DNA of 64,000 nucleotides from Rhizophagus irregularis (Eukaryota > Glomeromycota > Glomeromycetes > Glomerales > Glomeraceae). The stretch lies in NCBI RefSeq assembly GCF_026210795.1, contig NC_089438.1, positions 1,013,501 to 1,077,500 on the forward strand. Reading direction: 5' to 3'. The position numbers and the translations under genes are program-made. The notes beneath the pieces were generated by a model. The model was given only the letters and a program-made list of their open reading frames with translations, was not told the DNA's origin and did no database searches. Positions 9,908 to 52,158 of this stretch are shown here, piece by piece (the first letter of the stretch is position 1; every line of letters starts with the position of its first letter).

Positions 9908-10936
9908 TAGTTTTATCCTTTCCTTTGCTAGTGTTTATGGCCAGACCACCCATTGCCTCTTATGAGACTAATCTCGGGTCTGTGTTCTATCATCTTCACT
10001 GGGCAACCATTATACCGAGTACTTAATTCTTCAGGTAATAGCACCACTTTAGAAGACATCCCCCATCGGGCCATTTTAGGCTGATCTGAAGCTAGGTACA
10101 CACCGCCTACTCATCCTATATCCATTGCATGATACTGATACTCAATTTATTTTACGACCTTTAGAGAGCACCTACTTTCATGGAGGACTTTCGACAGGTA
10201 ACATCAACCATCTAGTACCCTTCCATACCACCATTTTAGGTACTAAGTCTCACTCAAAGGCCACTACAGCCCGCGATTACCTAGCACCGATAGTACAATT
10301 GTTTACCCCAAGTAGTATACTTTGTAGTGACCACTCGGACAGGAAGTAGCAGGCATCTGTTCAGGATCACCCCTTATGGTGGGTATCAACCACCAGGGAT
10401 CACCAACCAGAACCCAAGGAGTGGGGAATTGAACCCCATAACCATGCTACCTGTTCTGTGTACGAACACCTTGGTTGGCCTAAGACCTAACAGAAGGTCT
10501 AACTACCACTAAGACATTGCACCCTCAGCTTTACCATCTAGGATGACCATCTAGCCATTACTGACCCCAAGTGGTATTATGGAGTGACCACCCGAACAGA
10601 AAGTCCCCCCCAAGGTATAGTAGTGACCTCAAGGACAGGACTGCACACATGCCAATGGCCTCATAGGGAACGTTAGAAGGACACCATGACTCTTAGTTGA
10701 AATGTGCGGCCTAACCGTACACACTAATTCACCATGATGCAGTCCAACTACACTAATTCCTGTACCTTCACGCTATTGGTTGTAGCATCTACAGTAAAAT
10801 TCTTTTTATTTCCGTGGTCATGGGAATCAAACCTGTGACTTCACCATACTCAGGCTTAATGAGGGTCTCAGTAACTAACCACCAAGATAGGGTGACCAAC
10901 CCTAGTTTTATCCTTTTCCTTTGCTAGTATTTACGG
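9908..10936 (-). repeat. Composite SINE-like repeat, unit A and start of unit B
   Basis: Unit A runs 9908-10902 and unit B starts at 10903; each begins TAGTTTTATCC. Composition is markedly less AT-rich than the surroundings. On the minus strand there are two tRNA-like Pol III modules: one with a B box GGTTCAATTCC (10435-10425) and upstream TGGTAGTTAGACC resembling an A box, the other with GGTTTGATTCC (10833-10823). Multi-tRNA-derived SINEs have this look. The short open frames within it are by-products. Gypsy element A interrupts unit B at 10937. Confidence 0.55.
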
Positions 10937-12251
10937 TGTTATCCCCGTCTGCCACCCAGTGGTAAACAAGCTTCCCTGCTTTAACGTATATTCGTTCTCC
11001 ATGAAACATTAATATTCTTGCTTGGTTTAGTTTTATTACTACTTAACTTTCAAATTGCGATAGCTCTCGCCACGATATTTCATCCTTTTTCTTCTTTCAA
11101 ATTTACGATAGTTCTCTTTACGAAAGTTTATATTTTTTCATTTCATAATTCTTGTTATGACATTAAATTCACCATGAATTTGTCCAATTAAAATTAATTA
11201 AGCGAACATTACAATAAAGTTTAGGGCGAACCTATTACCTTTAAAATAACATTACGCTTTACAAACAATTAATTAAACAAAATTACTTTTTCATCATAAG
11301 AAAATAGTAACAAAAACAATTGAAACGATTAATTTTCATATAAAGGGTATTTTATTTATTCTTCATAAAATTCACAATTAACTAATTTACTTAAAGTTTT
11401 ACATCGTATCTGACGACTGTGGAATTCACTTCCCATTCCCCTCCTATTTAAACCAACTTTCTTATTCTTTCTTTTCTTACTTCTTATTTCTTTCTAATAT
11501 TTTATGTTATGTGTTTTCTTTTATGTGCTATCTTATATGCTATTTATATATTATCTTTTCTAATATGTTATACTATTTTAATATGCTATCTTTTCTTCAA
11601 AATAATCTTTCAAATATTATGTCGTAAAGATATAATCCATCTTTTGTGGCTGTGCTATCTTTTCTTTAAAATAAAATAATCTTTCAAATATTATATCGTA
11701 AAGATCCATCTTCTGTGGCTGTGCTATCTTTTCTTTAAAATAAAATAATCTTTCAAATATTATATCGTAAAGATCCATCTTTTGTGGCTGTGCTATCTTT
11801 TCTTTAAATTAAAATAATCTTTCAAATATTATATCGTAAAGATCCATCTTTTGTGGCTGTGCTATCTTTTCTACTGCGTCTCGTCAGCTATTCTTCCACT
11901 GCGGCTGCAGTTCATCAATATTTTACATGTTTTTATTTTTTTGTTCCTTTAATTCACTATCCTTCCTTTTTATATGATTTATCATTTGTGGCTTATGATT
12001 ACACTCCTCCTAATTGTTCTTATTGTCGAACTTGATAAACTGGTTGTTAAGCCACATCGATCAACTCCCTACTTGATCTATTGGTTCTCCGTTAATCATT
12101 TAATAAACATTACATCATGTAGATCATTCCTTCTCCTAAAAGTTTATCCTTTCCGGTTAATTTTATCCAATCATGTAACTTTCTATTGTTTGATCTTTTA
12201 TTACATATTATTCCTCCATATTATGCGATTACTTCAGTATCTATGGCTACA
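10937..12251 (-). repeat. 3' LTR of element A
   Basis: 1,315 bp, plus-strand ends TGTTATCCCC and GGCTACA. Contains four copies of a ~64-bp minisatellite (about 11590-11875) with the phrase CCATCTTTTGTGGCTGTGC; the partner LTR has five. The two LTRs are otherwise very similar, implying a fairly recent insertion. Confidence 0.93.
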
Positions 12252-12281: not shown

Positions 12282-13477
12282 TCAAATTCGAACTATTACT
12301 TCAAAATTTGTCCTATCAATATATTCTTTCAGTAATTCACCATTTACTGGTGTTTTCAATATCTTCCCTTCTATAGTTTTAATTCTGTATGATCCTTTAG
12401 AAATTATCTCATGTACATAATAAGGTCCTTTCCATTTTTCTTCTAATTTTCCAGACCATTGTTTCTCTTTTGCTGCGTCATAATATAGTACTTTATCTCC
12501 GATTTGTAATTTCTGCTTTGTTCTATTCTTTTTATCATGGTATGATTTTTGTTTTTCCTGAGATTTCCTGACATTTTCTTTAGCTTGATTCCTAATGTTT
12601 GGTAATTCTTTGATTAACCCATTAACTCTCTCTGTCATGGTAATTTCCTTATCTTCTAAATCTAATAATGTCTTCATTTGTCTCCCATATATTAAATATC
12701 CTGGTTCCATTTTTGTTGAATCATTTCTTTTAGTTCGATACACGAACAATACTCCTGGTACTTTTAAATCCCAATCTTCGATATTACTTAGCTTTGCTAA
12801 TGATTCACATAATGTCTTATTAAATCTTTCAATTAACCCATTAGTTTTTGGATGATAAGGCGTTGAAAAGTTATGTTTTATCTGAAATTCCTCCATTAAT
12901 GATTTCACTAATTTATTATTGAAATGACTTCCTCTATCAGACTATCACTCAATATCTTCTTTGGACATCCATGCCTGCATATTATATCTTCATAAATAAA
13001 TCTTGCAATTTCTTTAGCATCTGCTGTTTCCAATGCCTTTGCTTCAGGCCATTTTGTAAAATAATCCATCGCTGTAACTATATATCTATTATTTCTCTTT
13101 GTTACTGGTAATGGTCCCACTACATCAATCCCCATTTGATAAAATGGTTCTATAACTTTGATTACATTCAGTTCGTGTTTTCCTATTGGTTTTCCTCTTC
13201 TCTGACAATTATCACATGATTTGACATAAGCTTCCACATCTTTTCTCATCCCTTTCCAATAATATCCATCTTTGATCCTATTATACGTTGCATCTATTCC
13301 AAAGTGTCCTGATAATTCATGATCGTGAGCTATGTACATTAATCCTTCAAATTCGTATTTTCTTATCACTCTTAGTCTTTTCTCATCTTTTATTTTGTAA
13401 ATTAATCCTTCTATAATTTCATATTCCCGTTCATCGTTGATATTTCTCGCTATCTTATTATATTCTTCCTCTTCCAT
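12282..13477 (-). pseudogene. Integrase of element A, frameshifted
   Basis: A separate integrase frame starts at ATG 13477. The N-terminal HHCC zinc domain is present (HDHELSGHFG, then CDNCQRRG), then the core with Asp in GIDVVGPLP, Asp in KILSD and Glu in NGLIERFNKTL. The C-terminal DNA-binding part has GDKVLYYDAAKEKQWSG and KWKGPYYV, the GPY/F module of Ty3/gypsy. An 8-nt insertion around 12934-12948, made by a TGATAG repeat, shifts the frame just after the second catalytic Asp; the rest continues at 12908-12282. Encoding integrase apart from RT is unusual and is shared with element B. Confidence 0.93.
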
Positions 13478-14239: not shown

Positions 14240-16563
14240 TTAAGCTCTTTGGTGTTTTTCTATCTCCTTATATACTTTTCTCCAACTACTATTGTCGTTC
14301 CTAACTTCAATTTGACTGTATCTTTTGGTATCTTTGTATACATCCTGGTTTTCTTTAAACATTTTAACTATGTCCAAATATTCGTTTTTCTTTAATGTTG
14401 GGTATGACGATTTCTCCATTTTCTTCGTTTCTCTTCCAATATAATTTTCCCAACATACATCGCCATCTTTTTCCAAAAATATCACTATTGATTTATCTAT
14501 TGTTTCTTTTAACCTGAATATTTCTTTTTCCATCTCATGGTTCCCATGTGGAGTAATTAATCCTCTGTTGAAACTTTTCGTCTTCTGATAATAATATTCA
14601 CAATATGGCGATTTGTCTAGAATTATTATATCCGTATCTTCATCATATTCTAACATTCTTCTGTTTATTTGTTCTACTACTTCCTTTCTAAATTTCCATT
14701 CTGTTTCTAACTTTGATTCGTGAAATTCACCTTTGTCTTTTCTTCTCCTTTTGAATGTATTAAATCTTACTTTTAATCCTTGTTTTTCCCATTCTTTAAT
14801 TAAATTTTGTACTATACTTGTTTTTCCTAATCCATCCACTCCATCGATTATAATAACTTGTGGCTTATTTTCTCTTTCCAATTTCTTTAATACTTCTTTT
14901 TCTGTCTTATCCTCCAAATTCAAAAGTATTGCTTCTTTATCGGTAAAATATTTTTCATCATCCCATCTCCCTTTAAATCTTTTAGCATTATACCATTTAT
15001 TCCTAAATTTGATATATCTCAATTTCCCCTTATTACTTTCTATTTTTGTTATTTCTTGATTCTCGTTCCTTGCTGTTTCTTTTTCTTTAAATGTCAGTCT
15101 TGATAATCCATCTGCATTTTTAATTTTCTTTCCACTTCTATGTATTATTTTAAAATCAAATTGTTGTAATTTCATTACCCATCTCCTGTTTGTTCTTTTC
15201 CATCTGTTAATCCTTTTAATGCTGCATGATCTGTTATCACTATAAATTTCCTTCCTACCAAATATTTCTGAAAATGTTGTATTCCCCAAAATACTGCTAA
15301 GCATTCCAATTCTGTTGGTGGATAATTCTTTTCTGCTCCCACTGTACTCCTACTTGCGTAAGCTATTACAACCTCTTTATTTTCTCCATTCATTTGAGCT
15401 AACACTGCTCCTAATCCTATCTTAGATCCATCAGTTATCAATATAAATTCTCTACTGAAATCCGGATATACTAAAATTGGATTTTCTGTCAATTTTGTCC
15501 TCAATACGTCAAATGCTTCTTGTTGTTCTTCTTTCCATTCAAACTTTTCATTCTTTTTTGTTAAGTTAAGCAAAGGTTTTGCTATCTTCGAAAAACCTTT
15601 TATAAATCTCCTATAATATGAACATAATCCTAAAAATGATCTTACTTCTGTAACAGTTTTCGGCCTCCTCATATTTTCTATTTTCTCAACTTTCTCTTTA
15701 TCCGGTCGCAATCCATCCCTTCCTACTATATGCCCTAAGAAATTTATATTTCTCAATCCAAACTGACATTTCTTCAATTTTACAATCATATTATTCTCTC
15801 TCAATTTACTCAATACTTTATCTACATGTTCTATATGTTCCTCAAAATCTTCTGAATAAATCATTATATCATCTAAATACACTGTAACAAATTCTCCTAT
15901 ATATTCTTTTAATATTTTATCCATTAATCTCCGAAATGTTCCTGGTGCATTCTTCAATCCAAATGGCATAACATTGTATTCATATAATCCTTGTGAACAA
16001 ATGAATGCTGTTTTCTCTTTATCTTCTTCTGCCATTTCCACTTGATGATATCCCGCTGCTAAGTTCAAACTTGTGAACCAACTTCCCTTTCTAAATTTTT
16101 CTAACAATTCGTCTATCCAGGGTAAAGGATATTCATCTGACTTTGTCACATTATTTAGCTTTCTATAATCTATACAAAATCTATAATTTCCAGTTTTCTT
16201 TCCTGCTAACGTCACCGGAGATGCCCAATTACTCCATGATTCTCTTATCTTCCCCATCTTTAACAATTGCTCAATTTCCTTCTTTATAAATTTTCCTTTT
16301 TCATCAGTTTCTTTATATCTCTTTTGTGCTATTGGTCCTTGATTTTCTTCAATTATTATTTCATGTTTAACTGTATTTATCCTTCCCAGTTTCTCTTCGT
16401 CATATTCGAATATATCTTCATATTTCCTTATCAATTTTCTAAATGTTGTTCTCTCCTCATCGCTCATTTCTCCCAGATGTGTTTTCTTTTCAAATTTTTC
16501 TTCTTTGCTCTCATTTAGCATCTTTACTGTCTCTCCTTCATTCAGAAAGCCAAGACTATTCAT
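14240..16563 (-). pseudogene. RT-RNase H-kinase polyprotein of element A, frameshifted
   Basis: Starts at ATG 16563, which overlaps the protease stop as ATGA. RT follows with FCIDYRKLNNVT, LNLAAGYHQVEM, NVMPFGLKNAPGTF and catalytic VYLDDIMIY. RNase H has ILITDGSKIGLGAVLAQ (Asp kept; usual ITDAS), an Glu in YPPTELECLAVFW and Asp in VITDHAALKG. Near 15175-15190 a deletion of about 10 nt relative to element B shifts the frame; the second frame (15304-14240) carries the rest of RNase H (IIHRSGKKIKNADGLSRL) and then a P-loop kinase-like domain described separately. Stop at 14240 separates it from integrase. Confidence 0.93.
14243..14875 (-). other. Thymidylate-kinase-like domain fused to pol, element A
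   Basis: About 210 residues, the length of dTMP kinases. Walker A is IIIDGVDGLGKTS (about residues 151-163 of the second pol frame), very like the EGxDGxGKT of dTMP kinases. Then come IIILDKSPYCEYYYQK, in the place of the DRxxxSxxAYQ motif, and VIFLEKDGDVCWENYIGRET, like the LDVDPExAxxRxxxRG lid-side segment. The open frame is undamaged over the whole domain. By family it would phosphorylate a deoxynucleoside monophosphate (dTMP to dTDP), possibly supplying dNTPs for reverse transcription. Related deoxynucleoside kinases are the main alternative. The substrate is an inference. Confidence 0.8.
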
Positions 16564-16958
16564 TTTTCCTCATCTCTCTTTTCTCTATCAGTTTTTACAA
16601 TCGATAACAACTCTTCTTTTTCCATCTCCTCATATTCATCTTCACCCTCTGACTCTTCACTAGAATTGCCATCTATATCATCTATATTCTTTGGATCTTC
16701 ATTAAATTCACCCCTATTCTCTGACTCCTCAAATTCAACATTTTTCTTTCCTCTAAAATCAATTGGTATTTCATATACTCCATTATCCCATTCTATTGTT
16801 AACAGACCTTCTTTCATATTTATTATCCCATATCTTAATAAATCAGTTCCTAATATCAAATCTTTTCTTCTCGAGTCAATTACTTCGAACTCTAAAGGTA
16901 TTTCTAAATTTTCATCAATTTCTATTCTAATTTCCACTCTTCCTAATGAAGCTATGTT

Positions 16959-18271
16959 TAGAGCTCCGAATGGGTCGGGTCGGGTCGGGTAATTGACTTG
17001 ACCCGACCCAAGGCAAGTCATGAATTTGGTGACCTTACCCGAATATCACGGGTCAGTTCGGATACCCGACCCGACCCATTGACCCGATATATTTTGGGTC
17101 AAAAAAACGTTTCGGCACTTTTTATTACGCCAAAACGTCTTTTTTTTTGTTTCTTCTAATGAAAAACGTTGGACCCGACATTTTTAAATTAAAGAAACAA
17201 TTTTTTTTTGTTTCTTTTAATAAAAAACGTCAAACCCGACGTTTTTTAATAAAGAAACATTTTTTTTTTGTTTCTTTTAATGAAAAAACGTCAAACCCGA
17301 CGTTTTTTAATTAAAGAAACATTTTTTTTGTTTCTTTTAATGAAAAAACGTCAAACCCGACGTTTTTTAATTAAGGAAACATTTTTTTTGTTTCTTTTAA
17401 TGAAAAAACGTCAAACCCGACGTTTTTTAATAAAGAAACATTTTTTTTTGTTTCTTTTAATGAAAAAACGTCAAACCCGACGTTTTTTAATTAAAGAAAC
17501 ATTTTTTTTTGTTTCTTTTAATGAAAAAACGTCAAACCCGACGTTTTTTAATTAAAGAAACATTTTTTTTGTTTCTTTTAATGAAAAAACGTCAAACCCG
17601 ACGTTTTTTAATTAGAGAAACATTTTTTTTGTTTCTTTTAATGAAAAAACGTCAAACCCGACGTTTTTTAATTAAAGAAACATTTTTTTTGTTTCTTTTA
17701 ATGAAAAAACGTCAAACCCAACGTTTTTTAATTAAAGAAACATTTTTTTTGTTTCTTTTAATGAAAAAACGTCAAACCCGACGTTTTTAATTTAAGAAAC
17801 ATTTTTTTTTGTTTCTTTTAATGAAAAAATGTCAAACCCGACGTTTTTTAATTCAAGAAACATTTTTTTTTGTTTCTTTTAATAAAAAACGTCAGGTTTG
17901 ATGTTTTTTAATTAAAGAAACTATTTTTTTTGTTTCTTTTAATAAAAAACGTCAGGTTCGACGTTTTTTAATAAAGAAACATTTTTTTTGTTTCTTTAAT
18001 CGAACCCAATGTTTTTAATAAAAAAAGACGTTTTTGTAATTATTTTTAATGAAAAAACGTCGGATTCAGGTCAGTTTGGCATTTTTTTATATATATAAAA
18101 TGCTGAAACGTCTTATTTTTGACCGAAATATGTCGGGTCAATGGGTCGGGTCGGGTACCCGACTGCGACTGACCCGACCCGAGGTCGGGTCATTAAATCT
18201 GCTACCCGACCTGAATTTTTCGGGTCAACCCGTCAGGTCACCCGATCCGTCGAGTTAAATTCGAAGCTCTA
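16959..18271. mobile_element. hAT-like element with internal 60-bp array, inside protease
   Basis: Ends TAGAGCTCCGAA and TTCGAAGCTCTA are inverted repeats with one mismatch, flanked by a perfect 8-bp duplication GCTATGTT (16951-16958, 18272-18279). Subterminal (GGGTC)n and its complement form long complementary arms. The core (about 17150-18060) is roughly 15 tandem 60-bp units, each with GAAACA..TGTTTC and AAACGTC..GACGTTT dyads. The 60-bp unit is a multiple of three, so long repeat-peptide frames appear on the plus strand; they are artefacts. Eight-bp duplications point to hAT-type transposition. Confidence 0.9.
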
Positions 18272-18476: not shown

Positions 18477-18489
18477 CCGAGTGTAGTCA
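18477..18489 (-). promoter_or_regulatory. Probable Gag-Pol stop-codon readthrough site, element A
   Basis: The Gag stop is TGA followed by CTACACTCGG, and the protease frame continues in phase without another stop up to the active site. UGA followed by CUA is the classic leaky context used by several viral readthrough proteins. Element B has the identical 13 nt at its Gag-protease border. Confidence 0.75.
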
Positions 18490-21400
18490 ATATCTCAAAC
18501 CATTTAATAATTTCTTCCTTACTTCTGGTCTTTCATTCATCATTTGTCCCCAATTAATTGGTACGCTTGAATTTACAAATTGTTCAAATGGATCGAAATC
18601 TCCAACATTTGGTATATTTTGATTTAGCTTCACTTTCTCGTTTGTACATTCTTTAGAAAAATGTCCTTGTTGTCCACAATTGCTACACCTATTATTATTC
18701 TTTCTAGTTTCATATCCTTTCTGTAATTGTTCTTTTGTAAAACCTCTCTTATTATTCTCCTGTGCTTTTTGTTGTTGTCCTTGCCATTGTGCATTTCTTC
18801 TTCTATCTCTTTCATCATTCATAACCTTGTCTTTATTTCTTTCACTCTTTCTAGGTGATACTGGGAACATATCGTATCTTTCCTCATTTTCATAGTTATT
18901 CACTTCATATCCATCAAATCCATTATTATTATAGTTATCATACCCATCACCTTCATTATATCCATCATATTCATCATTATATTCCATATTATACACATTA
19001 TGTCCTCCACCATAGTATTCTTCTTCAAGATAATTAACTTGATTATTTCGGCTATATGACCCTCTATTATTTCCTCCATATGATCTTCTTTGACCTTCCC
19101 TACAAACTCTAGAAGTATATCCTTTTCTTCCACATGTATAACAAGTCATTCTATCCCAGTTCATATTATTTCTTTGGACATTATTATTTCCGATCGGTCT
19201 CCTATCATTCCCATTCCTTTGCATTACATGTGTTTCATTTCTTTGCATTATATGTGCTTCCAACCTTTTCATTCCATCGATTAACTCATCCCATTCATCA
19301 CTTTTAACTTCTTTATTTTGTAATTCTTTTGCGATTGGATTCATTCCTTTATACTTATTTGTCTCGTCTTTCAAAATTTCTTCCATGTTTTTCTCTTGTC
19401 CTACTCGTTTCATATCCAACCCTGTTGTTTTCATTAACAATTCATCTTTCGCTTCCTCTTCTCTTTTTGCCTCATTAACTGCATCATTCAGATTCGTCAG
19501 ATTACTTCTCCTAACATGGTAACCTAGCATGGCATCTAACCCTTGAATAAAATAATTTACTTGATATAAATCATCTAACGCATGACCTCTAGTCGCAATT
19601 CTTAATATCGATCTAAATCTTCTAGTATACTCTTCAACACTTTCATTTGTTCCCTGTTTAATTCTTGCTAGTTCCAACATTTTTCTTCTTTGAACATCAT
19701 TCCTAGTAAATCTGTCGATTAATCTTCTTTTTAAATTCCTGTCCTCATTATGATCACACCAATTCACTAAATTAACTGCTACCTTTTCTTTTTCTTCATT
19801 ATACCATTGTAATGCGATTCCTCTCAAACAAGTTATGGCTATATTTGCCTTATTTTGTCTACACACACCTCCTCCAACATTTCCTTCTGGTCGTCCACTT
19901 ACTGTAAATGCTATCTCAAATTGTCTAATCCAATCATTAATATCTTCATTCTCTTTTCCACTAAAAGTTGGCATACCTACTATTCCCCCCATTCCTGCGG
20001 TTTGAATCCTATCCGCCAAAGTCTGTCCTGCTCCTAATGCATTATCTAATGCATTTGGTGCTAATCCCATAGCATTTTCCATTATTCTCCTTATTTGTAC
20101 TTCATTTGCCATATTTACTATATTCTCTTGAAATAATTCTTGTAAATTGTAATCAGATATTTCACTTTCCATGTCAGAATTTTTAAAATTTAATGAACTA
20201 TTCGAATCTGAATTTTGATTCAGACCAAAACCTCCTGTATTTATAACATTTTCGATTTTATTTTCAGATTCCTCTTCTTCAAAATCTTCATCACTTCCAT
20301 CCCATATTTCATATTCTTCTGGACTTAATATTTCTCCAATCTTTTCTGAATCATCTGTATTATCTTCTTCTGATTCTTCATTATCACTCTTTTCACCACT
20401 TTCTTCACTATCTATCACTCCTGCTTGTTCTTTCAACAACTTATCTAACTTCTTCTTTAGTTCTTTTTCTGACTCATTTTTATTTTCTTGAAAGATTTCA
20501 ATAAATTCTTTATCTAAAATTTCTCCATCTGTATATCCCATACTAGTTAATCTTAACAATTCCTCTTCAATTATCATTATTCCAATATCCTCAAAAATCT
20601 TCTGTAATCTTTTTACCCGATCATCAATTTCATTAATATCTTCTTCTTCACAATCTCTGCATACAGTTCCTCCTAATCTAAACATATCATTCATCCATCT
20701 TATTTCACATCTTTCACACCAAGTTGTATTCTCATTTAACCACTTATGAATCTCTTTTCTTAATTCTTTATCTTCCAAATTTATCATTTCCATATATTCT
20801 TCCACAAATTCTTTAGTTATTATTATTCGATTATTTACTCCAAAACTTTTTATCCTTTGAATTTCTGATACATCTATTTCGTATCCCAATTTTTCTAAAT
20901 CATCTTTTAATTCTGCTAACTCATCTTGTTCATCTTTCTGCATTTCTTTAATACATTCCCCACATTCATTATCTGTTCTGTCCATTTCAAATCTCCTATT
21001 ACCACATCTTTTACATATTACTGTTTCTTTTTCTAACCATTCTCTTATCTCCAATTCTTTTTCCCTTTCATCCATTTCCTCTACCTCTTGGACTTTATCT
21101 ATAAATATTTTTGTTACCAATATATCCATTTCTATCATCAACTTTATTCCTATCTTCCAAATGTATCTCAATTGATCTTCATCTATAGAACTTGTCCTTC
21201 TCTTTAATTCACTAAATTTCCATGATTTGTCTCCTATTATTATCTCTAATTCTTCCTCAGAACTATTTTCTAATTCGTAACTCGCTGGACTACCTTCACT
21301 TTCTGAATCCTCTGGTTCTTTTGTAAAGCCCCTAGTGTCTATAAATATTCTTATTATCTTTTGTATCATATTCTTATGATGTTCTTGAACATTATCTATT

Positions 21401-22047
21401 TCTATATTTTCATATATTATTCCTTGCATTAATTCCTTCACTTTTTCTTCACTTTCCGCTATCTTTTCTTCTTCATAGAATAATTCTTTGAACTTCTCTA
21501 TTGCTCCTACTTCTGCTTTTACGGCCCTAATTTCTCCTAATGCGACTCTATACCATTGCCAAAATTTCTCAAATCTTCTCTCGACATCCCAACCTTCCAA
21601 GATATATTTGTGTTCCACTAACTCAGGATTCCCAATTAATCTGTCAAATACTTCATTCTCTAAATTTCCTTCAATATAATCCCTTACAATTACTAATATA
21701 ATTGTCCGTAATCCTTTTTCTTTCATTTTTGGTTGTATTCTATATCTTATTGATTCCGTTATTCTATCCATTATGTCTCTACATTTTCCTTTGTGTATTG
21801 TATCTTCTCTTTCCGAATTATCCATACTTAATAAATCTATTACTCCCTTGATCATTACATTATTATATATTATTATTGTATCTTCGAACTTAAATAATGC
21901 ATCCCAAAATTTCTTGAACACCATTGGTTTATTTTCTATTGGATGACATAATTCACAATTTAAACATTCATCTAATTCTCCTGTTCTCAATTCATGTTCC
22001 TCTTTATGTACCCTATATTCGCTCTCCCATTGATGGTACCATTCCAT
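18487..22047 (-). CDS. Gag of element A, intact and N-terminally extended
   Basis: 1,186 residues from ATG 22047, against 300-500 in most Ty3/gypsy Gags. The first ~690 residues are an extension with Cys pairs: CLNCELC at about 28, CKRCGNR at about 346 with CGEC shortly after, and CERC/CRDC at about 444-464. They look like two zinc-ribbon-like modules, followed by an acidic Ser/Glu-rich stretch. The capsid region starts near residue 700 (INDWIRQFEIAF, LRGIALQWYNEE, VEEYTRRFRSILRIATRG). Two knuckles follow: the first (CYTCGRKGYTSRVC) has Tyr where His is expected, the second (CSNCGQQGHFSKEC) is a perfect CCHC. It would package element RNA in cytoplasmic particles. The uninterrupted frame contrasts with the broken pol. 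Confidence 0.93.
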   Translation of the reverse strand: MEWYHQWESEYRVHKEEHELRTGELDECLNCELCHPIENKPMVFKKFWDALFKFEDTIIIYNNVMIKGVIDLLSMDNSEREDTIHKGKCRDIMDRITESIRYRIQPKMKEKGLRTIILVIVRDYIEGNLENEVFDRLIGNPELVEHKYILEGWDVERRFEKFWQWYRVALGEIRAVKAEVGAIEKFKELFYEEEKIAESEEKVKELMQGIIYENIEIDNVQEHHKNMIQKIIRIFIDTRGFTKEPEDSESEGSPASYELENSSEEELEIIIGDKSWKFSELKRRTSSIDEDQLRYIWKIGIKLMIEMDILVTKIFIDKVQEVEEMDEREKELEIREWLEKETVICKRCGNRRFEMDRTDNECGECIKEMQKDEQDELAELKDDLEKLGYEIDVSEIQRIKSFGVNNRIIITKEFVEEYMEMINLEDKELRKEIHKWLNENTTWCERCEIRWMNDMFRLGGTVCRDCEEEDINEIDDRVKRLQKIFEDIGIMIIEEELLRLTSMGYTDGEILDKEFIEIFQENKNESEKELKKKLDKLLKEQAGVIDSEESGEKSDNEESEEDNTDDSEKIGEILSPEEYEIWDGSDEDFEEEESENKIENVINTGGFGLNQNSDSNSSLNFKNSDMESEISDYNLQELFQENIVNMANEVQIRRIMENAMGLAPNALDNALGAGQTLADRIQTAGMGGIVGMPTFSGKENEDINDWIRQFEIAFTVSGRPEGNVGGGVCRQNKANIAITCLRGIALQWYNEEKEKVAVNLVNWCDHNEDRNLKRRLIDRFTRNDVQRRKMLELARIKQGTNESVEEYTRRFRSILRIATRGHALDDLYQVNYFIQGLDAMLGYHVRRSNLTNLNDAVNEAKREEEAKDELLMKTTGLDMKRVGQEKNMEEILKDETNKYKGMNPIAKELQNKEVKSDEWDELIDGMKRLEAHIMQRNETHVMQRNGNDRRPIGNNNVQRNNMNWDRMTCYTCGRKGYTSRVCREGQRRSYGGNNRGSYSRNNQVNYLEEEYYGGGHNVYNMEYNDEYDGYNEGDGYDNYNNNGFDGYEVNNYENEERYDMFPVSPRKSERNKDKVMNDERDRRRNAQWQGQQQKAQENNKRGFTKEQLQKGYETRKNNNRCSNCGQQGHFSKECTNEKVKLNQNIPNVGDFDPFEQFVNSSVPINWGQMMNERPEVRKKLLNGLRY

Positions 22048-23824: not shown

Positions 23825-25206
23825 TGTCACCCCGTCTGCCACCCGGTGGTAAACAAGCTTCCCTGCTTTAACGTATATTAATTCTCCACGAAACATTAAT
23901 ATTCTTGCTTGGTTTAGTTTTATTACTACTTAACTTTCAAATTGCGATAGCTCTCGCCACGATATTTCATCCTTTTTCTTCTTTCAAATTTACGATAGTT
24001 TTCTTTATGAAAGTTTATATTTTATTCATTTCATAATTCTTGTTATGACATTAAATTCACCATGAATTTGTCCAATTAAAATTAATTAAGCGAACATTAC
24101 AATAAAGTTTAGGGCGAACCTATTACCTTTAAAATAACATTACGCTTTACTAACAATTAATTAAACAAAATTAGTTTTTCATCATAAGAAAATAGTAACA
24201 AAAACAATTGAAACGATTAATTTTCATATAAAGGGTATTTTATTTATTCTTCATAAAATTCACAATTAACTAATTTACTTAAAGTTTTACATTGTATCTG
24301 ACGACTGTGAAATTCACTTCCCATTCCCCTCCTATTTAAACCAACTTTCTTATTCTTTCTTTTCTTACTTCTTATTTCTTTCTAATATTTTATGTTATGT
24401 GTTTTCTTTTATGCGCTATCTTATATGCTATTTATATATTATCTTTTCTAATATGTTATACTATTTTAATATGCTATCTTTTCTTCAAAATAATCTTTCA
24501 AATATTATGTCGTAAAGATATAATCCATCTTTTGTGGCTGTGCTATCTTTTCTTTAAAATAAAATAATCTTTCAAATATTATATCGTAAAGATCCATCTT
24601 TTGTGGCTGTGCTATCTTTTCTTTAAAATAAAATAATCTTTCAAATATTATATCGTAAAGATCCATCTTTTGTGGCTGTGCTATCTTTTCTTTAAAATAA
24701 AATAATCTTTCAAATATTATATCGTAAAGATCCATCTTTTGTGGCTGTGCTATCTTTTCTTTAAAATAAAATAATCTTTCAAATATTATATCGTAAAGAT
24801 CCATCTTTTGTGGCTGTGCTATCTTTTCTACTGCGTCTCGTCAGCTATTCTTCTACTGCGGCTGCAGTTCATCAATATTTTACATGTTTTTATTTTTTTG
24901 TTCCTTTAATTCGCTATCCTTCCTTTTTATATGATTTATCATTTGTGGCTTATGATTACTCCTCCTAATTGTTCTTATTGTCGAACTTGATAAACTGGTT
25001 GCTGAGCCACATCGATCAACTCCCTACTTGATCTATTGGTTCTCCGTTAATCATTTAATAAACATTACATCATGTAGATCATTCCTTCTCCTAAAAGTTT
25101 ATCCTTTCCAGTTAATTTTATCCAATCATGTAACTTTCTATTGTTTGATCTTTTATTCCATATTATTCCTCCATATTATGCGATTACTTCAGTATCTATG
25201 GCTACA
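23825..25206 (-). repeat. 5' LTR of element A
   Basis: 1,382 bp, plus-strand ends TGTCACCCC and GGCTACA. Holds five copies of the ~64-bp minisatellite (about 24480-24830), one more than the 3' LTR. That extra unit accounts for nearly all of the 67-bp length difference. Confidence 0.93.
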
Positions 25207-27124
25207 ACGGCCAGACCACCCATTGCCTCTTATGAGACTAATCTCGGGTCTGTGTCCTATCATCTTCAATGGGCAACCATTATACCAAGTACTTAATTCC
25301 TCAGGTAACAGCACCACTATAGAAGACATCCCACATCAGGCCATTTTAGGCTGATCAGAAGCTAGGTACACGCCGCCTACTCATCCTATACCCATTGCAT
25401 GATACTGGTACTCAATTTATTTTACAACCTTTAGAGAGCACCTACTTTCATGGAGGACTTTCGACAGGTAACATCAACCATCTAGTACCCTTCCATACCA
25501 CCATTTTAGGTACTAAGTCTCACTCAAAGGCCACTACAGCCCGCAATTACTTAGCACCGATAGTACAGTTGTTTACCCCAAGTGGTATACTTTGTAGTGA
25601 CCACTCGGACAGGAAGTAGTAGGCATCTGTCCAGGATCACCCCTTATGGTGGGTATCAACTACCAGGGATCACCAACTAGGACCCAAGGAGTAGGGAATC
25701 GAATCCCATAACCATGCTACCTGTTCTGTGCACGAACACTTTGGTTGGTCTAAGACCTAACAGAAGGTCTAACTACCACTAAGACGACCATCTAGCCATT
25801 ACTGACCCAAGCGGTATTGTGGAGTGACCACCCGGACAGGAAGTCCCCCCAAGGTATAGTAGTGACCTCAAGGACAGGACTGCGCACATGCCAATGGCCT
25901 CATAGGGAACGTTAGAAGGACACCATGACCCTTAGTTAAAATGTGCGGCCTAACTGTACACACTAATTCACCATGATGCAGTCCAACTACACTAATCCCT
26001 GTACCTTTACGCTATTGGTTGTAGCGTCTGCAGTAAAATTCTTTTTATTTCTGTGGTCATAAGAATCAAACCTGCGACCTCACCATACTCAGGCTTAATG
26101 AGGGTCTCAGTGACTAACCACCGAGATAGGGTGACCAACCCTAGTTTTATCCTTTTCTTTTGCTAGTGTTTACAGCCAGACCACCCATTGCCTCTTATGA
26201 GACTAATCTCAGGTCTGTGTCCTATCATCTTCACTGGGCAACCATTACACCGAGTACTTAATTCCTCAGGTAACAGCACCATTTTAGAAGACATCCCCCA
26301 TCGGGCCATTTTAGGCTGATCTGAAGCTAGGTACACGCTGCCTACTCATCCTATATCCATTGCATGATACTGATACTCAATTTATTTTACGATCTTTAAA
26401 GAGCATCTACTTTCATGGAGGACTTTCGACAGGTAACATCAACCATCTAGTACCCTTCCATACCACCATTTTAGGTACTAAGTCTCACTCAAAGGCCACT
26501 ACAGCCCGCAATTACTTAACACCGATAGTACAGTTGTTTACCCCAAGTGGTATACTTTGTAGTGACCACTCGGACAGGAAGTAGTAGGCATCTGTCCAGG
26601 ATCACCCCTTATGGTGGGTATCAACTACCAGGGATCACCAACTAGGACCCAAGGAGTAGGGAATCGAATCCCATAACCATGCTACCTGTTCTGTGCACGA
26701 ACACTTTGGTTGGTCTAAGACCTAACAGAAGGTCTAACTACCACTAAGACGACCATCTAGCCATTACTGACCCAAGCGGTATTGTGGAGTGACCACCCGG
26801 ACAGGAAGTCCCCCCAAGGTATAGTAGTGACCTCAAGGACAGGACTGCGCACATGCCAATGGCCTCATAGGGAACGTTAGAAGGACACCATGACCCTTAG
26901 TTAAAATGTGCGGCCTAACTGTACACACTAATTCACCATGATGCAGTCCAACTACACTAATCCCTGTACCTTTACGCTATTGGTTGTAGCGTCCGCAGTA
27001 AAATTCTTTTTATTTCTGTGGTCATAAGAATCAAACCTGCGACCTCACCATACTCAGGCTTAATGAGGGTCTCAGTGACTAACCACCGAGATAGGGTGAC
27101 CAACCCTAGTTTTATCCTTTTCCG
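25207..27124 (-). repeat. Composite SINE-like repeat, rest of unit B and unit C
   Basis: Unit B resumes after element A and runs to 26141; unit C runs 26142-27106, each about 965 bp in its empty form, with a last TAGTTTTATCC boundary at 27107. Units B and C are closer to each other than to A, so the duplication giving B and C is younger. Minus-strand B boxes read GATTCGATTCC (25705-25695 and 26670-26660). A 74-codon open frame recurs in all three copies, but it has no domain and I treat it as incidental. Confidence 0.55.
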
Positions 27125-35931: not shown

Positions 35932-36627
35932 TGTAACCCGAGAAATCAGGATAATCACGTGAGCGGATGAATAAAAGACCGAATGGAACAAGGATAAATA
36001 ATTAACTGATGGATAAATAATTAGCCGAAGGATAAATAATTAACTGATAAAATAATATTTATAGTTTAGTTTAGTTTAGTCACGAGATAGTCATATGATA
36101 ATACATCTTTATTTTCTTATTGTTCTTAAATTTTTATTAGTAGAAAAGTTAGAAATAGTAGAAATAATTTTCTTAAAAATGTATAAATATAGGTGGGATT
36201 CGTTAGGAATTCCACAGTCAGTTTTTGACTCAAAATTAATAAAATAAATATTAATTATTAAAAGTTATCTTGAATATGCTCATTGTATGCTTGAGAATTA
36301 ATTAATATTATAATATTAAGTCCAGAAAAGTAATGAAAAGGGAGTTATTCTCATTTCATTGTATGAAATATAATAAGAAGTTAGGAGAACTCTCGCAGTT
36401 TATAAGAAGTAAAGTGGTAATATTTAAAAGAATAAATATTACATAAAGAATAATATTTTGGGAATATTATGAATGAGAGGTAGTATCTGAAAGAAGAGAT
36501 ATTACGAATATATGAGAGAGAAAGCGAGAAGTTAAGAGAAAAATAGAAATCTAAACCAAGCGAAATAACGAAAAATAAAGTGAAATAAGAGATTGTGTTT
36601 ACTCACGGGTGGCAGACGTGGGTGACA
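35932..36627 (+). repeat. 5' LTR of element B
   Basis: 696 bp. A few transitions distinguish it from the 3' LTR (for example CCACAGTC against CCGCAGTC near 36210). Contains ATAAATAATTAACTGAT/AGCCGA repeats near the start. Unlike element A it has no minisatellite. Confidence 0.93.
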
Positions 36628-47350: not shown

Positions 47351-48416
47351 AATATATTGGAGAATTTGTAATAGTATATTTAGATGATATAATGATTTAT
47401 TCGAAAAATTTTGAAGAACATGTGGAACATATTGATAAAGTGTTGAGTAAATTAAGAGAAAACAATCTGATTGTAAAGTTAAAGAAATGTAAGTTTGGTG
47501 AACGAAATATAGAATTTTTAGGACATATAGTTGGAAGAGATGGTTTAAAACCAGATGTAAAGAAAGTGGAGAAGATTAAAGAAATAAAGATACCAGAAAC
47601 TGTTACACAAGTAAGATCATTTTTAGGATTGTGTTCATATTATAGGAGATTTATAAAGAATTTTGCAAGAATAGCAAAACCTTTATATCACTTAATTAAG
47701 AAGGATATACCATTTGAATGGACAGAGAGACAACAAGAAGCATTTGAAGAATTGAAAATAAGATTAATGGAAAAACCAGTATTGGATTACCCGAATTTTG
47801 AAAAGGAGTTTATATTAATAACAGATGCATCGGGAGAGAGATTAGGAGCAGTATTATCTCAGAAAAATGAGGAAAATAAAGAATTTGTGATAGCTTATGC
47901 CAGTAGAAGTTTAGTTGGAGCAGAAAAGAATTATGCAATAACAGAATTAGAGTGTTTAGCAATATTTTGGGGAATTAAATATTTCCATAAGTTTTTAGCA
48001 GGAAGAAAATTTACAGTTATAACAGATCATTCTGCACTAAAAGGATTAATGAATGCTAAAGTACCTACAGGAAGAAGAGCGAGATGGGTAATGGAGTTAC
48101 AACAGTATGATTTTGAAGTAATACATAGAAGTGGTAAAGAAAATAAGAATGCAGATGCATTATCAAGATTAAAATTTGAGGAAAAGGTTATAAAAAGGGA
48201 CGTTGAAAGCTCAGATCAAGAAATAATGAAAATGGAGTATAATAAAGAGAAAAAGCTGAAATATGTTAAATTTGAAAATAAATGGTATGAAGCTAAAAGA
48301 TTTAAAGGAAAATAGGATGATGTTAAATATTTTACCAACAAAGAAGCAATACTTCTGAATTTAGAGGAGAAAACAGAGAAAGAATTATTAAGGAAACTAG
48401 GAAGAAAGAATAAACC

Positions 48417-49038
48417 ACAAGTTGTTATCGTAGATGGACCAGATGGTACAGGAAAGTCTACTGTAGTAGAAAATATGATCAAACGACTAGAAGAAAAGGA
48501 TGATTTAAAAATAATATTTAATAAGTTTAAAAGAAGAAGAAATGATGATAGCAGATTCAAAGAACCTTCAAAAGAATATGAATGGTTATTTAGAAAACAA
48601 GTTGTGGAAGAAATTAACAGGAGAATAGTTGAATTTACAGATGAAGATATTATAATATTAGACAAGTCACCATATTGTGAATATTTTTATCAAAAGACCA
48701 AAAGTTTTGACAGAAGATATATTACTCCATATGGGAATCATAAAATGGAGAAAGAGATATTTAAATATAAAGACATTATAGATAATGCGGTAATAATTTT
48801 CTTAGAGAATAAAGAATGTTGGAATAATTATATTGGAAGAGAAACTAAGAAGAGTAATGAAGGACATAAAACATCATATAAAACGTTGAACGAAGAGGAA
48901 TATATGGATATGGTGAAAATGTTTAAAGAGCATCAGAATATTTATGAGAATAAAGGGAAATATAAGAGAATTAAAATTAAAAACGATGACAAAAGTTGGA
49001 AAAAAGTATATAAACGAGTCGAAAAGTTATTGGAAAAA
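48417..49038 (+). other. Thymidylate-kinase-like domain fused to pol, element B
   Basis: Walker A is VVIVDGPDGTGKSTVVENM, a textbook match to the dTMP/deoxynucleoside kinase P-loop. It is followed by IIILDKSPYCEYFYQKTKSF and VIIFLENKECWNNYIGRETK as in element A, and an alpha-helical tail. Open throughout, 207 residues. The P-loop and the DKSPYCEY motif are the best conserved parts between A and B while linkers vary, as expected for a selected enzyme. Function as in element A, by inference. Confidence 0.82.
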
Positions 49039-50399: not shown

Positions 50400-52158
50400 T
50401 GTAACCCGAGAAATCAGGATAATCACGTGAGCGGATGAATAAAAGACCGAATGGAACAAGGATAAATAATTAACTGATGGATAAATAATTAGCCGAAGGA
50501 TAAATAATTAACCGATAAAATAATATTTATAGTTTAGTTTAGTTTAGTCACGAGATAGTCATATGATAATACATCTTTATTTTCTTATTGTTCTTAAATT
50601 TTTATTAGTAGAAAAGTTAGAAATAGTAGAAATAATTTTCTTAAAAATGTATAAATATAGGTGGGATTCGTTAGGAATTCCGCAGTCAGTTTTTGACTCA
50701 AAATTAATAAAATAAATATTAATTATTAAAAGTTATCTTGAATATGCTCATTGTACGCTTGAGAATTAATTAATATTATAATATTAAGTCCAGAAAAGTA
50801 ATGAAAAGGGAGTTATTCTCATTTCATTGTATGAAATATAATAAGAAGTTAGGAGAACTCTCGCAGTTTATAAGAAGTAAAGTGGTAATATTTAACACCA
50901 TTATAATGTTTAAATGAAAAACAAAAATAAATTTGGAATTCAATTTGCTGATCAGATTAGATTTGGTATGAAAATTTGTTGATCCTATTTTTGGTATTAG
51001 CAATTTGATCGGCCAATGTTAGTTTGTCATTATCAAAATATGGGCATGATCTGCACAATTTTTTTCCGGAAGTATTATAGTACTTATTAATAGTACTAGA
51101 CAGGACAGGACAAGACAAGACAGGACAGGACAGGACAGGACAGGACAGGATAGGGACAGAATTCTTAAACCACAATTTTGTGATTTAGAGCTTCCTGTGG
51201 TACTTTTATGTCATATTAAGTTTAACCATCAAATTGTAGGTTTTTTGGTAGAATTTTAATTTTGTTGATCATTTTTATTCACTAAATTTAAAAAAAAACA
51301 CTTCAACCGCAAATTCACAATTCATTATAACACAAAAAAAAAAATTTTTTATTTTTTAAAGAATGTTGTGTTAACATGTAATAAGTGATTAATAAAAAAA
51401 TATTTTGAAACATTTTTTAATTATTTTAACAAAAAAAATGTTGTGAAAACATTTTTTATTAATAAAAAAAACAGTTTCGCAACATTTTTTAATTGTTTTA
51501 ATAGAAAACATTGCGAAACTGTTTCTTTAATAATAATTTTATAAAAAAAATGGTTTTCACAAACGTTTTTAATTATTTTAACAAAAAACGTCGCAAAAAC
51601 GTTTTTTATTAGGTCCATCACTCCTTTCATCTCTCTTCAACTTTCCATTACTCCCTTTCGTCTCCCATCACTCCTTTCGTCTCCCATCACTCTTTTTCGC
51701 CTCCTATCACTTCTTTTTGTCTCCCATCACTCCTTTTCGTCTCCAAACACTTCTTTTTACCTCCCATCATTCCTCTTCATCTTTCCATCACCCTTTTTCG
51801 TCTCCCATCGTTCCTTTTTGTCTCCCATCACTCCTCTTCATCTTTCTATCACTCCTTTTCGTCTCCCATCACTGGTCATTTTTTTTTTTACAATAACTTC
51901 CACTTAAAAGATCTTTCAAAAGTATGTCAAGCTCCCCATGAAAATGACCTCTTGTTGAAAGAATAAATATTACATAAAGAATAATATTTTGGGAATATTA
52001 TGAATGAGAGGTAGTATCTGAAAGAAGAGATATTACGAATATATGAGAGAGAAAGCGAGAAGTTAAAAGAAAAATAGAAATCTAAACCAAGCGAAATAAC
52101 GAAAAATAAAGTGAAATAAGAGATTGTGTTTACTCACGGGTAGCAGACGTGGGTGACA
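50400..52158 (+). repeat. 3' LTR of element B with 1.06-kb insertion
   Basis: Matches the 5' LTR on both sides of an insertion at about 50895-51957. The LTR proper is about 696 bp. Confidence 0.92.
50895..51957. mobile_element. Unclassified insertion in the 3' LTR of element B
   Basis: Absent from the 5' LTR, so it arrived after element B. It contains a (CAGGA)n microsatellite (51099-51150), fragments with AAAACATTTTTTATTAATAA as in the hAT-like copy at 31836, and about ten copies of a pyrimidine repeat CTCCCATCACTCCTTTTCGT (51605-51875). No clear inverted ends; at most an AA duplication. Confidence 0.65.

Follow-up and report, generated by a model that had tools for sequence, protein, structure and literature searches.

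A thymidylate kinase-like domain in the pol region of Ty3/gypsy retrotransposons of Rhizophagus irregularis

A stretch of 64,000 nucleotides of the Rhizophagus irregularis genome (contig NC_089438.1, positions 1,013,501 to 1,077,500; hereafter, the window) carries two long terminal repeat (LTR) retrotransposons, elements A and B, and raises the question of what an open P-loop kinase domain (element A, 14243-14875, minus strand) is doing in pol, between RNase H and integrase. Here, we show where this domain sits, how it folds and to which family it is related, that its active site is conserved and its sequence constrained, and that it is distributed over multiple element families and has been exchanged between element lineages. 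The reading that we favor, with a probability of roughly 0.6, is that a group of Ty3/gypsy elements of the Glomeraceae took a thymidylate kinase (TMK)-like domain into pol, where it would supply a precursor of deoxythymidine triphosphate (dTTP) for cDNA synthesis.

A kinase domain inside pol

A preliminary description of this DNA had placed an intact P-loop domain directly behind RNase H. The domain is indeed intact, with all three of its motifs (IIIDGVDGLGKTS, ILDKSPYCEYYYQK and FLEKDGDVCWENYIGRET) inside a single open reading frame (ORF) of 354 aa (14240-15304) on the minus strand that comprises the end of RNase H, a linker and the 211-aa kinase domain in open frame, but roughly 80 linker residues lie between the end of RNase H and the P-loop. 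The plus strand of 14243-14875 has stops throughout. P-loop and kinase matches begin at about residue 133 of the ORF, and its Pfam matches include a P-loop kinase in place of any dUTPase. The ORF overlaps a 462-aa ORF for reverse transcriptase (RT) and RNase H (15175-16563, minus strand; PF00078, 1.3e-38; PF17919, 9.1e-35; PF17917, 1.5e-30) and is closed by a stop followed by ~760 nt before the integrase; therefore, element A has an RNase H-kinase ORF in which the kinase forms the C-terminal domain. The integrase is divided into an N-terminal part (12908-13477, minus strand; H2C2 zinc finger and core start) and a C-terminal part (12282-12908, minus strand), with Pfam matches over both ORFs to PF17921 (3.1e-22) and PF13683 (4.2e-7). 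That is, the order RNase H, kinase, integrase stands, with the qualification that a stop and a spacer intervene in this copy. Pol of element A is thus fragmented, RNase H and integrase each being spread over two ORFs, with the kinase domain open. The pol order of protease, RT, RNase H and integrase, the H2C2 finger and the paired LTRs identify the host element as a Ty3/gypsy LTR retrotransposon, and that the domain is part of retroelement pol is practically beyond doubt.

The predicted structure of the domain (pLDDT 89.1, pTM 0.86) has a deoxynucleoside/thymidylate kinase fold, a strong structural match that bears out the earlier suggestion of a dTMP kinase-like enzyme. The thymidylate kinase profile phrog_761 matches all 32 aligned relatives, including the element A kinase (7.1e-16, residues 4-207), and the Pfam thymidylate kinase family PF02223 matches 30 of the 32, with P0031 (30.2 bits) and P0080 (27.4 bits) exceeding its gathering cut-off of 27. 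Sequence searches of PDB returned FtsY P-loops best and TMKs next (E 0.02-0.06 or worse). The catalytic core is kept in each of the 39 distinct copies aligned, and conservation outside the P-loop extends to R63, DK, YQ and RE. The likeness to TMKs (PF02223, phrog_761 and E. coli Tmk) consists of the fold, the P-loop GxDGxGKT, the Arg aligned with R63, and the Tyr-Gln after the D-basic (here DK) motif; the element kinases also have a K/R cluster after strand 2 and a DKS motif. Membership in the clan of deoxynucleoside monophosphate (dNMP) and deoxynucleoside kinases is almost certain. The domain is predicted with good confidence to be catalytically active, its substrate is probably a monophosphate rather than a nucleoside, and dTMP as the main substrate is a prediction that could go either way.

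A recurrent, constrained and exchanged domain

A six-frame search of the assembly (146.7 Mb, 32 contigs), in which 150 of 172 candidates were scored and 150 of 151 matches listed, making all counts lower bounds, gave at least 150 matches in the same genome, which places the domain far beyond chance. Among the matches listed, 130 of 150 are near full length (at least 580 nt), 122 of these 130 having no internal stop and eight having one (manual count), and identities to the window copy fall mainly into classes of 95-100%, 84-90%, 60-66% and 55-60%. When the best 150 of 268 candidate integrase H2C2 sites were scored, a listed kinase lay upstream, on the same strand and within 2.5 kb, at 91, compared to none downstream and none on the other strand. 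Twenty copies were then hand-picked to span the identity classes, and 19 of them showed the order RT, RNase H, kinase, integrase, the remaining one (L026) being without RT and RNase H. Three of the five copies read (L021, L023 and L030) have a single RT-RNase H-kinase ORF (779, 706 and 777 aa, respectively) and encode the integrase separately, in an ORF of 347-411 aa. In L028, one ORF covers both RNase H and kinase, and in L034, of the 58% class, the kinase is joined to the integrase in an ORF of 600 aa that is distinct from RT-RNase H. Therefore, the kinase is a pol domain able to travel with either neighbor.

The ratio of nonsynonymous to synonymous divergence (dN/dS) was assessed in 15 pairs, which are mutually non-independent; several of the dS values are above 1 and only rough. 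For the kinase, it was 0.077-0.129 in the 14 pairs with finite dS (the fifteenth was saturated) and 0.081-0.129 in the seven pairs with dS below 0.8; the same comparison gave 0.037-0.140 for RT, 0-0.363 for RNase H and 0.078-0.333 for the first integrase part. The kinase is kept under purifying selection, and the check on dN/dS called for in the preliminary description thus found the domain constrained. Sporadic insertion is ruled out by the genome-wide copies in several families, the fixed position upstream of integrase, the low dN/dS and the invariant active site. Rather, the kinase recurs in several element families as a part that is under constraint, and the capture first attributed to element A was that of a whole element group, the kinase that element A carries today having been swapped in.

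Specifically, element A groups by RT and integrase with L028, L029, L030 and element B (85-88% and 77-86% identity, respectively), and by RNase H with L028 and L029 (89-92%, compared to 68-69% for L030 and element B). Its kinase is 89% identical to that of L023 and 61-65% identical to those of L028, L029, L030 and element B (the last at 48403-49026, plus strand, C10:1061903-1062526 in the genome, and 61% identical). Outside the kinase, elements A and L023 share 72% identity in RT, 63% in RNase H and 55-61% in integrase. In a sliding comparison, the switch to L023 falls near 14925-14880 and the similarity to L023 is lost near 14263-14218, i.e., at the edges of the kinase domain; between the latter point and about 13500, the relatives can scarcely be aligned, leaving the second edge less sharp, and in the integrase L028 is again the closer relative. 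Trees of 16 copies, chosen from the 20 hand-picked ones and the two in the window, placed element A with L028 and L029 for pol (support 100/99) and with L023-L025 for the kinase (100/99). Approximately unbiased (AU) tests rejected the other's grouping with p-values of 0.0023 (kinase data) and 1.3e-60 (pol data), which are descriptive, as the groups were picked after the identities had been seen. Hence, the kinase of element A comes from another lineage than its flanks and represents a swapped module; the exchange likely took place by copy-choice while co-packaged RNAs were being reverse-transcribed.

Substrate and possible role

Under the reading favored here, an RT-RNase H-kinase (or kinase-integrase) precursor would bring the kinase into the particle, where it would phosphorylate a dNMP, most likely dTMP to dTDP; host NDP kinase would then convert dTDP to dTTP, raising dTTP where the unusually A-rich RNA of the element serves as template for a T-rich first cDNA strand. 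Because the sense strand of element A has 43.4% A and 25.9% T, its first cDNA strand would be T-rich and dTTP the nucleotide most needed. Whether such a local supply of deoxynucleoside triphosphates (dNTPs) is the benefit to the element is, in our estimate, evenly balanced. A more tentative extension is that the RT-RNase H-nucleotide kinase polypeptide might constitute a covalently attached dNTP-synthesis step and an exchangeable cassette, derived from a NUDIX-kinase fusion and swapped between families by recombination at the domain edges.

Several observations weigh against this reading. A-richness does not follow the kinase: L045, a kinase-less copy, is equally A-rich (RT 46.7% A), the other three kinase-less copies having 30-33% A, and A-richness was rejected as proof of the kinase's purpose on account of L045. 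At 59 of the 150 scored integrase sites no listed kinase lies upstream, and in none of four copies at such sites, all from diverged families (L045-L048), was a kinase found between RNase H and integrase; therefore, Gypsy elements in this genome can dispense with it. Of the four, L045 is closest to the kinase-bearing copies in RNase H and in the first part of the integrase, and about level with L047 in RT. The fold by itself cannot separate TMK from deoxynucleoside kinase (dNK). The TMK similarity is low and remote, with the window copy at 21.1 bits, below the PF02223 cut-off. All 39 distinct copies have Asp-Lys (DK) at the position of the TMK DR motif (DR in six and ER in one of seven aligned TMKs), the R-x-P motif of TMKs after strand 2 is absent, its place being taken by the K/R cluster, and the element kinases further differ from TMKs in their fusion to RNase H or integrase. 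Finally, the class closest to the window copy contributes over half of the 39 copies, and core residues are lost in a few of the 32 relatives (D14 and K18 in P0052, G17 in P0023, S89 and P90 in P0015), as would be expected if some copies are dead. As a separate observation, the kinase-less Gypsy copy L047 (C11:1392200-1395700) has an extra stretch of ~300 aa between RNase H and integrase.

The alternative that survives best, and that we nevertheless consider unlikely, is that the kinase is active and belongs to the same clan but has a different substrate. It could then be a dNMP kinase of broad range, a dUMP/dCMP kinase or a deoxynucleoside (salvage) kinase, and its benefit would be dNTP supply and not dTTP specifically. 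TMK and dNK structures tie in comparison with the element A model, as this alternative would allow; the DKS motif is intermediate between the DRY/DRH of TMKs and what we take to be the ERS/DRS of dNKs; and PF01712 (dNK) aligns weakly but near end to end with P0030 (0.0052) and P0118 (0.0017). However, PF01712 is not among the matches of the window copy up to E 0.1, most members match families named for thymidylate kinase (phrog_761, 32/32; PF02223, 30/32), R63 and the Tyr-Gln that follows DK agree with TMK, and in the alignment the position after strand 2 that probably holds the catalytic base in dNKs appears to carry no acidic residue.

Clearly less probable is a P-loop protein that works outside metabolism, for example by phosphorylating 5' ends of nucleic acids or by serving, between RNase H and integrase, as an ATP switch or a module for assembly. 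Many P-loop families do match weakly, and P0118 matches phage polynucleotide kinases over ~70 residues (4e-3 to 5e-3), but matches of this kind mainly cover the P-loop region, whereas the full-length ones are to dTMP and deoxynucleoside kinases, and the conserved R63, DK, YQ and RE would fit an expected monophosphate site and LID. That the domain is a passenger, a host gene fragment carried by chance and functionless for the element, is rejected as highly improbable even though LTR elements can carry captured gene fragments and the window copy is itself broken elsewhere in pol, being contradicted by a dN/dS of about 0.1 between families, an active site invariant in 39 distinct copies, the same position in several diverged families, replacement by another kinase rather than loss, and the location of TMK-like exons elsewhere in the genome.

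A dTTP-supplying kinase would have a positional counterpart in non-primate lentiviruses, in which, according to PMC4531489, a dUTPase lies in pol between RNase H and integrase; the parallel drawn in the preliminary description is thus correct. What is alike is that an enzyme of nucleotide metabolism occupies this place in pol; the difference is that dUTPase, which converts dUTP to dUMP and pyrophosphate, is unrelated to the P-loop kinase. LTR retrotransposons of rotifers, planarians and fungi also carry an accessory pyrimidine-nucleotide enzyme, but theirs, as given in PMC5408684 and PMC6431247, is a dUTPase between protease and RT as opposed to a kinase after RNase H, and the word 'kinase' is absent from the main text of both papers. 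The earlier statement that no Ty3/gypsy element with a kinase at this place was known agrees with our search of the open-access literature on thymidylate, dTMP or nucleoside kinase with retrotransposons, which found no nucleotide kinase in a retroelement. In two papers on R. irregularis transposable elements (PMC8647823, PMC11075540), 'thymidylate' occurs zero times and the passages found for 'kinase' concern expanded host gene families; the former also reports Gypsy elements as expressed and among recent expansions. An accessory nucleotide enzyme in pol is, therefore, already known as a kind, and what appears to be new is the enzyme, the element in which it resides and its fusion to RT-RNase H or integrase.

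Restriction of the dNTPs available to reverse transcriptase recurs among hosts, and the pyrimidine-nucleotide enzyme described in retroelement pol in the literature found is dUTPase. If our reading is correct, a kinase at the dUTPase site would be a second, different answer to dNTP shortage (making more vs. cleaning up) and would allow genetics and biochemistry to ask directly, in a symbiont of central ecological importance, whether retrotransposition in fungi is limited by dNTP supply.

Relatives of the kinase and structure of the two elements

The closest named protein relatives are from R. irregularis and the other named ones from R. clarus, R. diaphanus and Glomus cerebriforme, Rhizophagus and Glomus both being genera of the Glomeraceae. 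No other named species occurs among the 56, 106 and 90 proteins listed, many of them unnamed metagenome proteins, by a search that finds only relatives with shared short words. Outside retroelements, the nearest relatives found are metagenomic NUDIX-kinase fusions, P0118 (389 aa, eight members) and P0086 (393 aa, three members; kinase 45% identical to the window copy). They share the kinase subfamily with the elements (DKSPYSE motif) and differ in having an N-terminal NUDIX domain (PF00293, 1.8e-8 and 2.4e-5, respectively) and no retroelement domain among their Pfam matches. The 'EAxLL' segment ahead of the retroelement kinase aligns with the end of the NUDIX part of both, which hints that the captured piece may have been a trimmed NUDIX-kinase. 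Rooted on P0118, a tree of 49 kinase rows placed P0086 within a set of short metagenome kinases (98% bootstrap with P0066) and so does not fix the order of NUDIX gain or loss; the model of P0118 is poor for the NUDIX part (mean pLDDT 59; below 55 per block in the first 140 residues). Recent capture of the host's own TMK seems unlikely, TMK-like exons lying elsewhere in the genome (C13:3242213-3242981 and C24:3288271-3288729). Domain searches of viral contigs (queries A1, P0086 and P0118) and GTDB genomes (A2) led nowhere, and a phage search gave two matches for the window copy (E 0.5 and 0.8) and none for P0046.

Among the relatives, short kinase versions of 263-264 aa also occur (P0017, P0022, P0024, P0038, P0040 and P0046), five of them with a similar start (M-K/R-x-K-Y). 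P0084 of R. clarus has a coiled-coil-like stretch followed by kinase and integrase, and L043 is a broken kinase copy behind such an ORF; this arrangement may possibly represent another element type. A dNK-like gene, L058 (C28:1224005-1224616), has a 336-aa open frame and is distinct from the retroelement kinase. The database names of the Rhizophagus proteins P0003, P0009, P0055 and P0113 ('phosphodiesterase-like', 'zinc knuckle protein', 'KRAB-A domain-containing') clash with their RNase H domains and kinase matches.

The remainder of element A, on the minus strand throughout, comprises a retropepsin-like protease ORF (16560-17021; weak Pfam match, 0.016), a 1186-aa Gag ORF with a zinc-knuckle motif (18487-22047), which ends in TGA followed by CTACACTCGG, and two LTRs (10943-12251 and 23830-25206), aligned with each other and with ends placed from the alignment limits. 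Identity between the two LTRs is 98.5% in the longest block, of 931 columns, and 97.6% in another one of 653; the insertion is, therefore, fairly young. Element B, on the plus strand, has LTR segments at 35932-36427 and 50400-50895 that are 99.4% identical to each other; its RNase H ORF stops short of the kinase domain and, like the copy of element A, it is broken in places. Repeats of ~965 bp lie on both sides of element A (9939-10934, 25209-26173 and 26142-27123), as if the element had been inserted between adjacent copies of a tandem repeat. The Gag and protease of element A are separated by a 60-bp tandem array (17062-18069), which is absent from that junction in the five copies read. In these five copies, Gag and protease are in one frame with a single TGA between them, followed by CTACA (UGA-CUA), which looks like a candidate stop-codon readthrough site for Gag-Pol; a published UGA case is Tca2 of Candida (PMC2194720). 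The TGA-CTACA site with open flanks was found at 17 of the 21 loci scanned (L021-L040 and L045), and the motif, unfiltered, is present in both elements of the window, at 18489-18477 (minus strand) and 45771 (plus strand).
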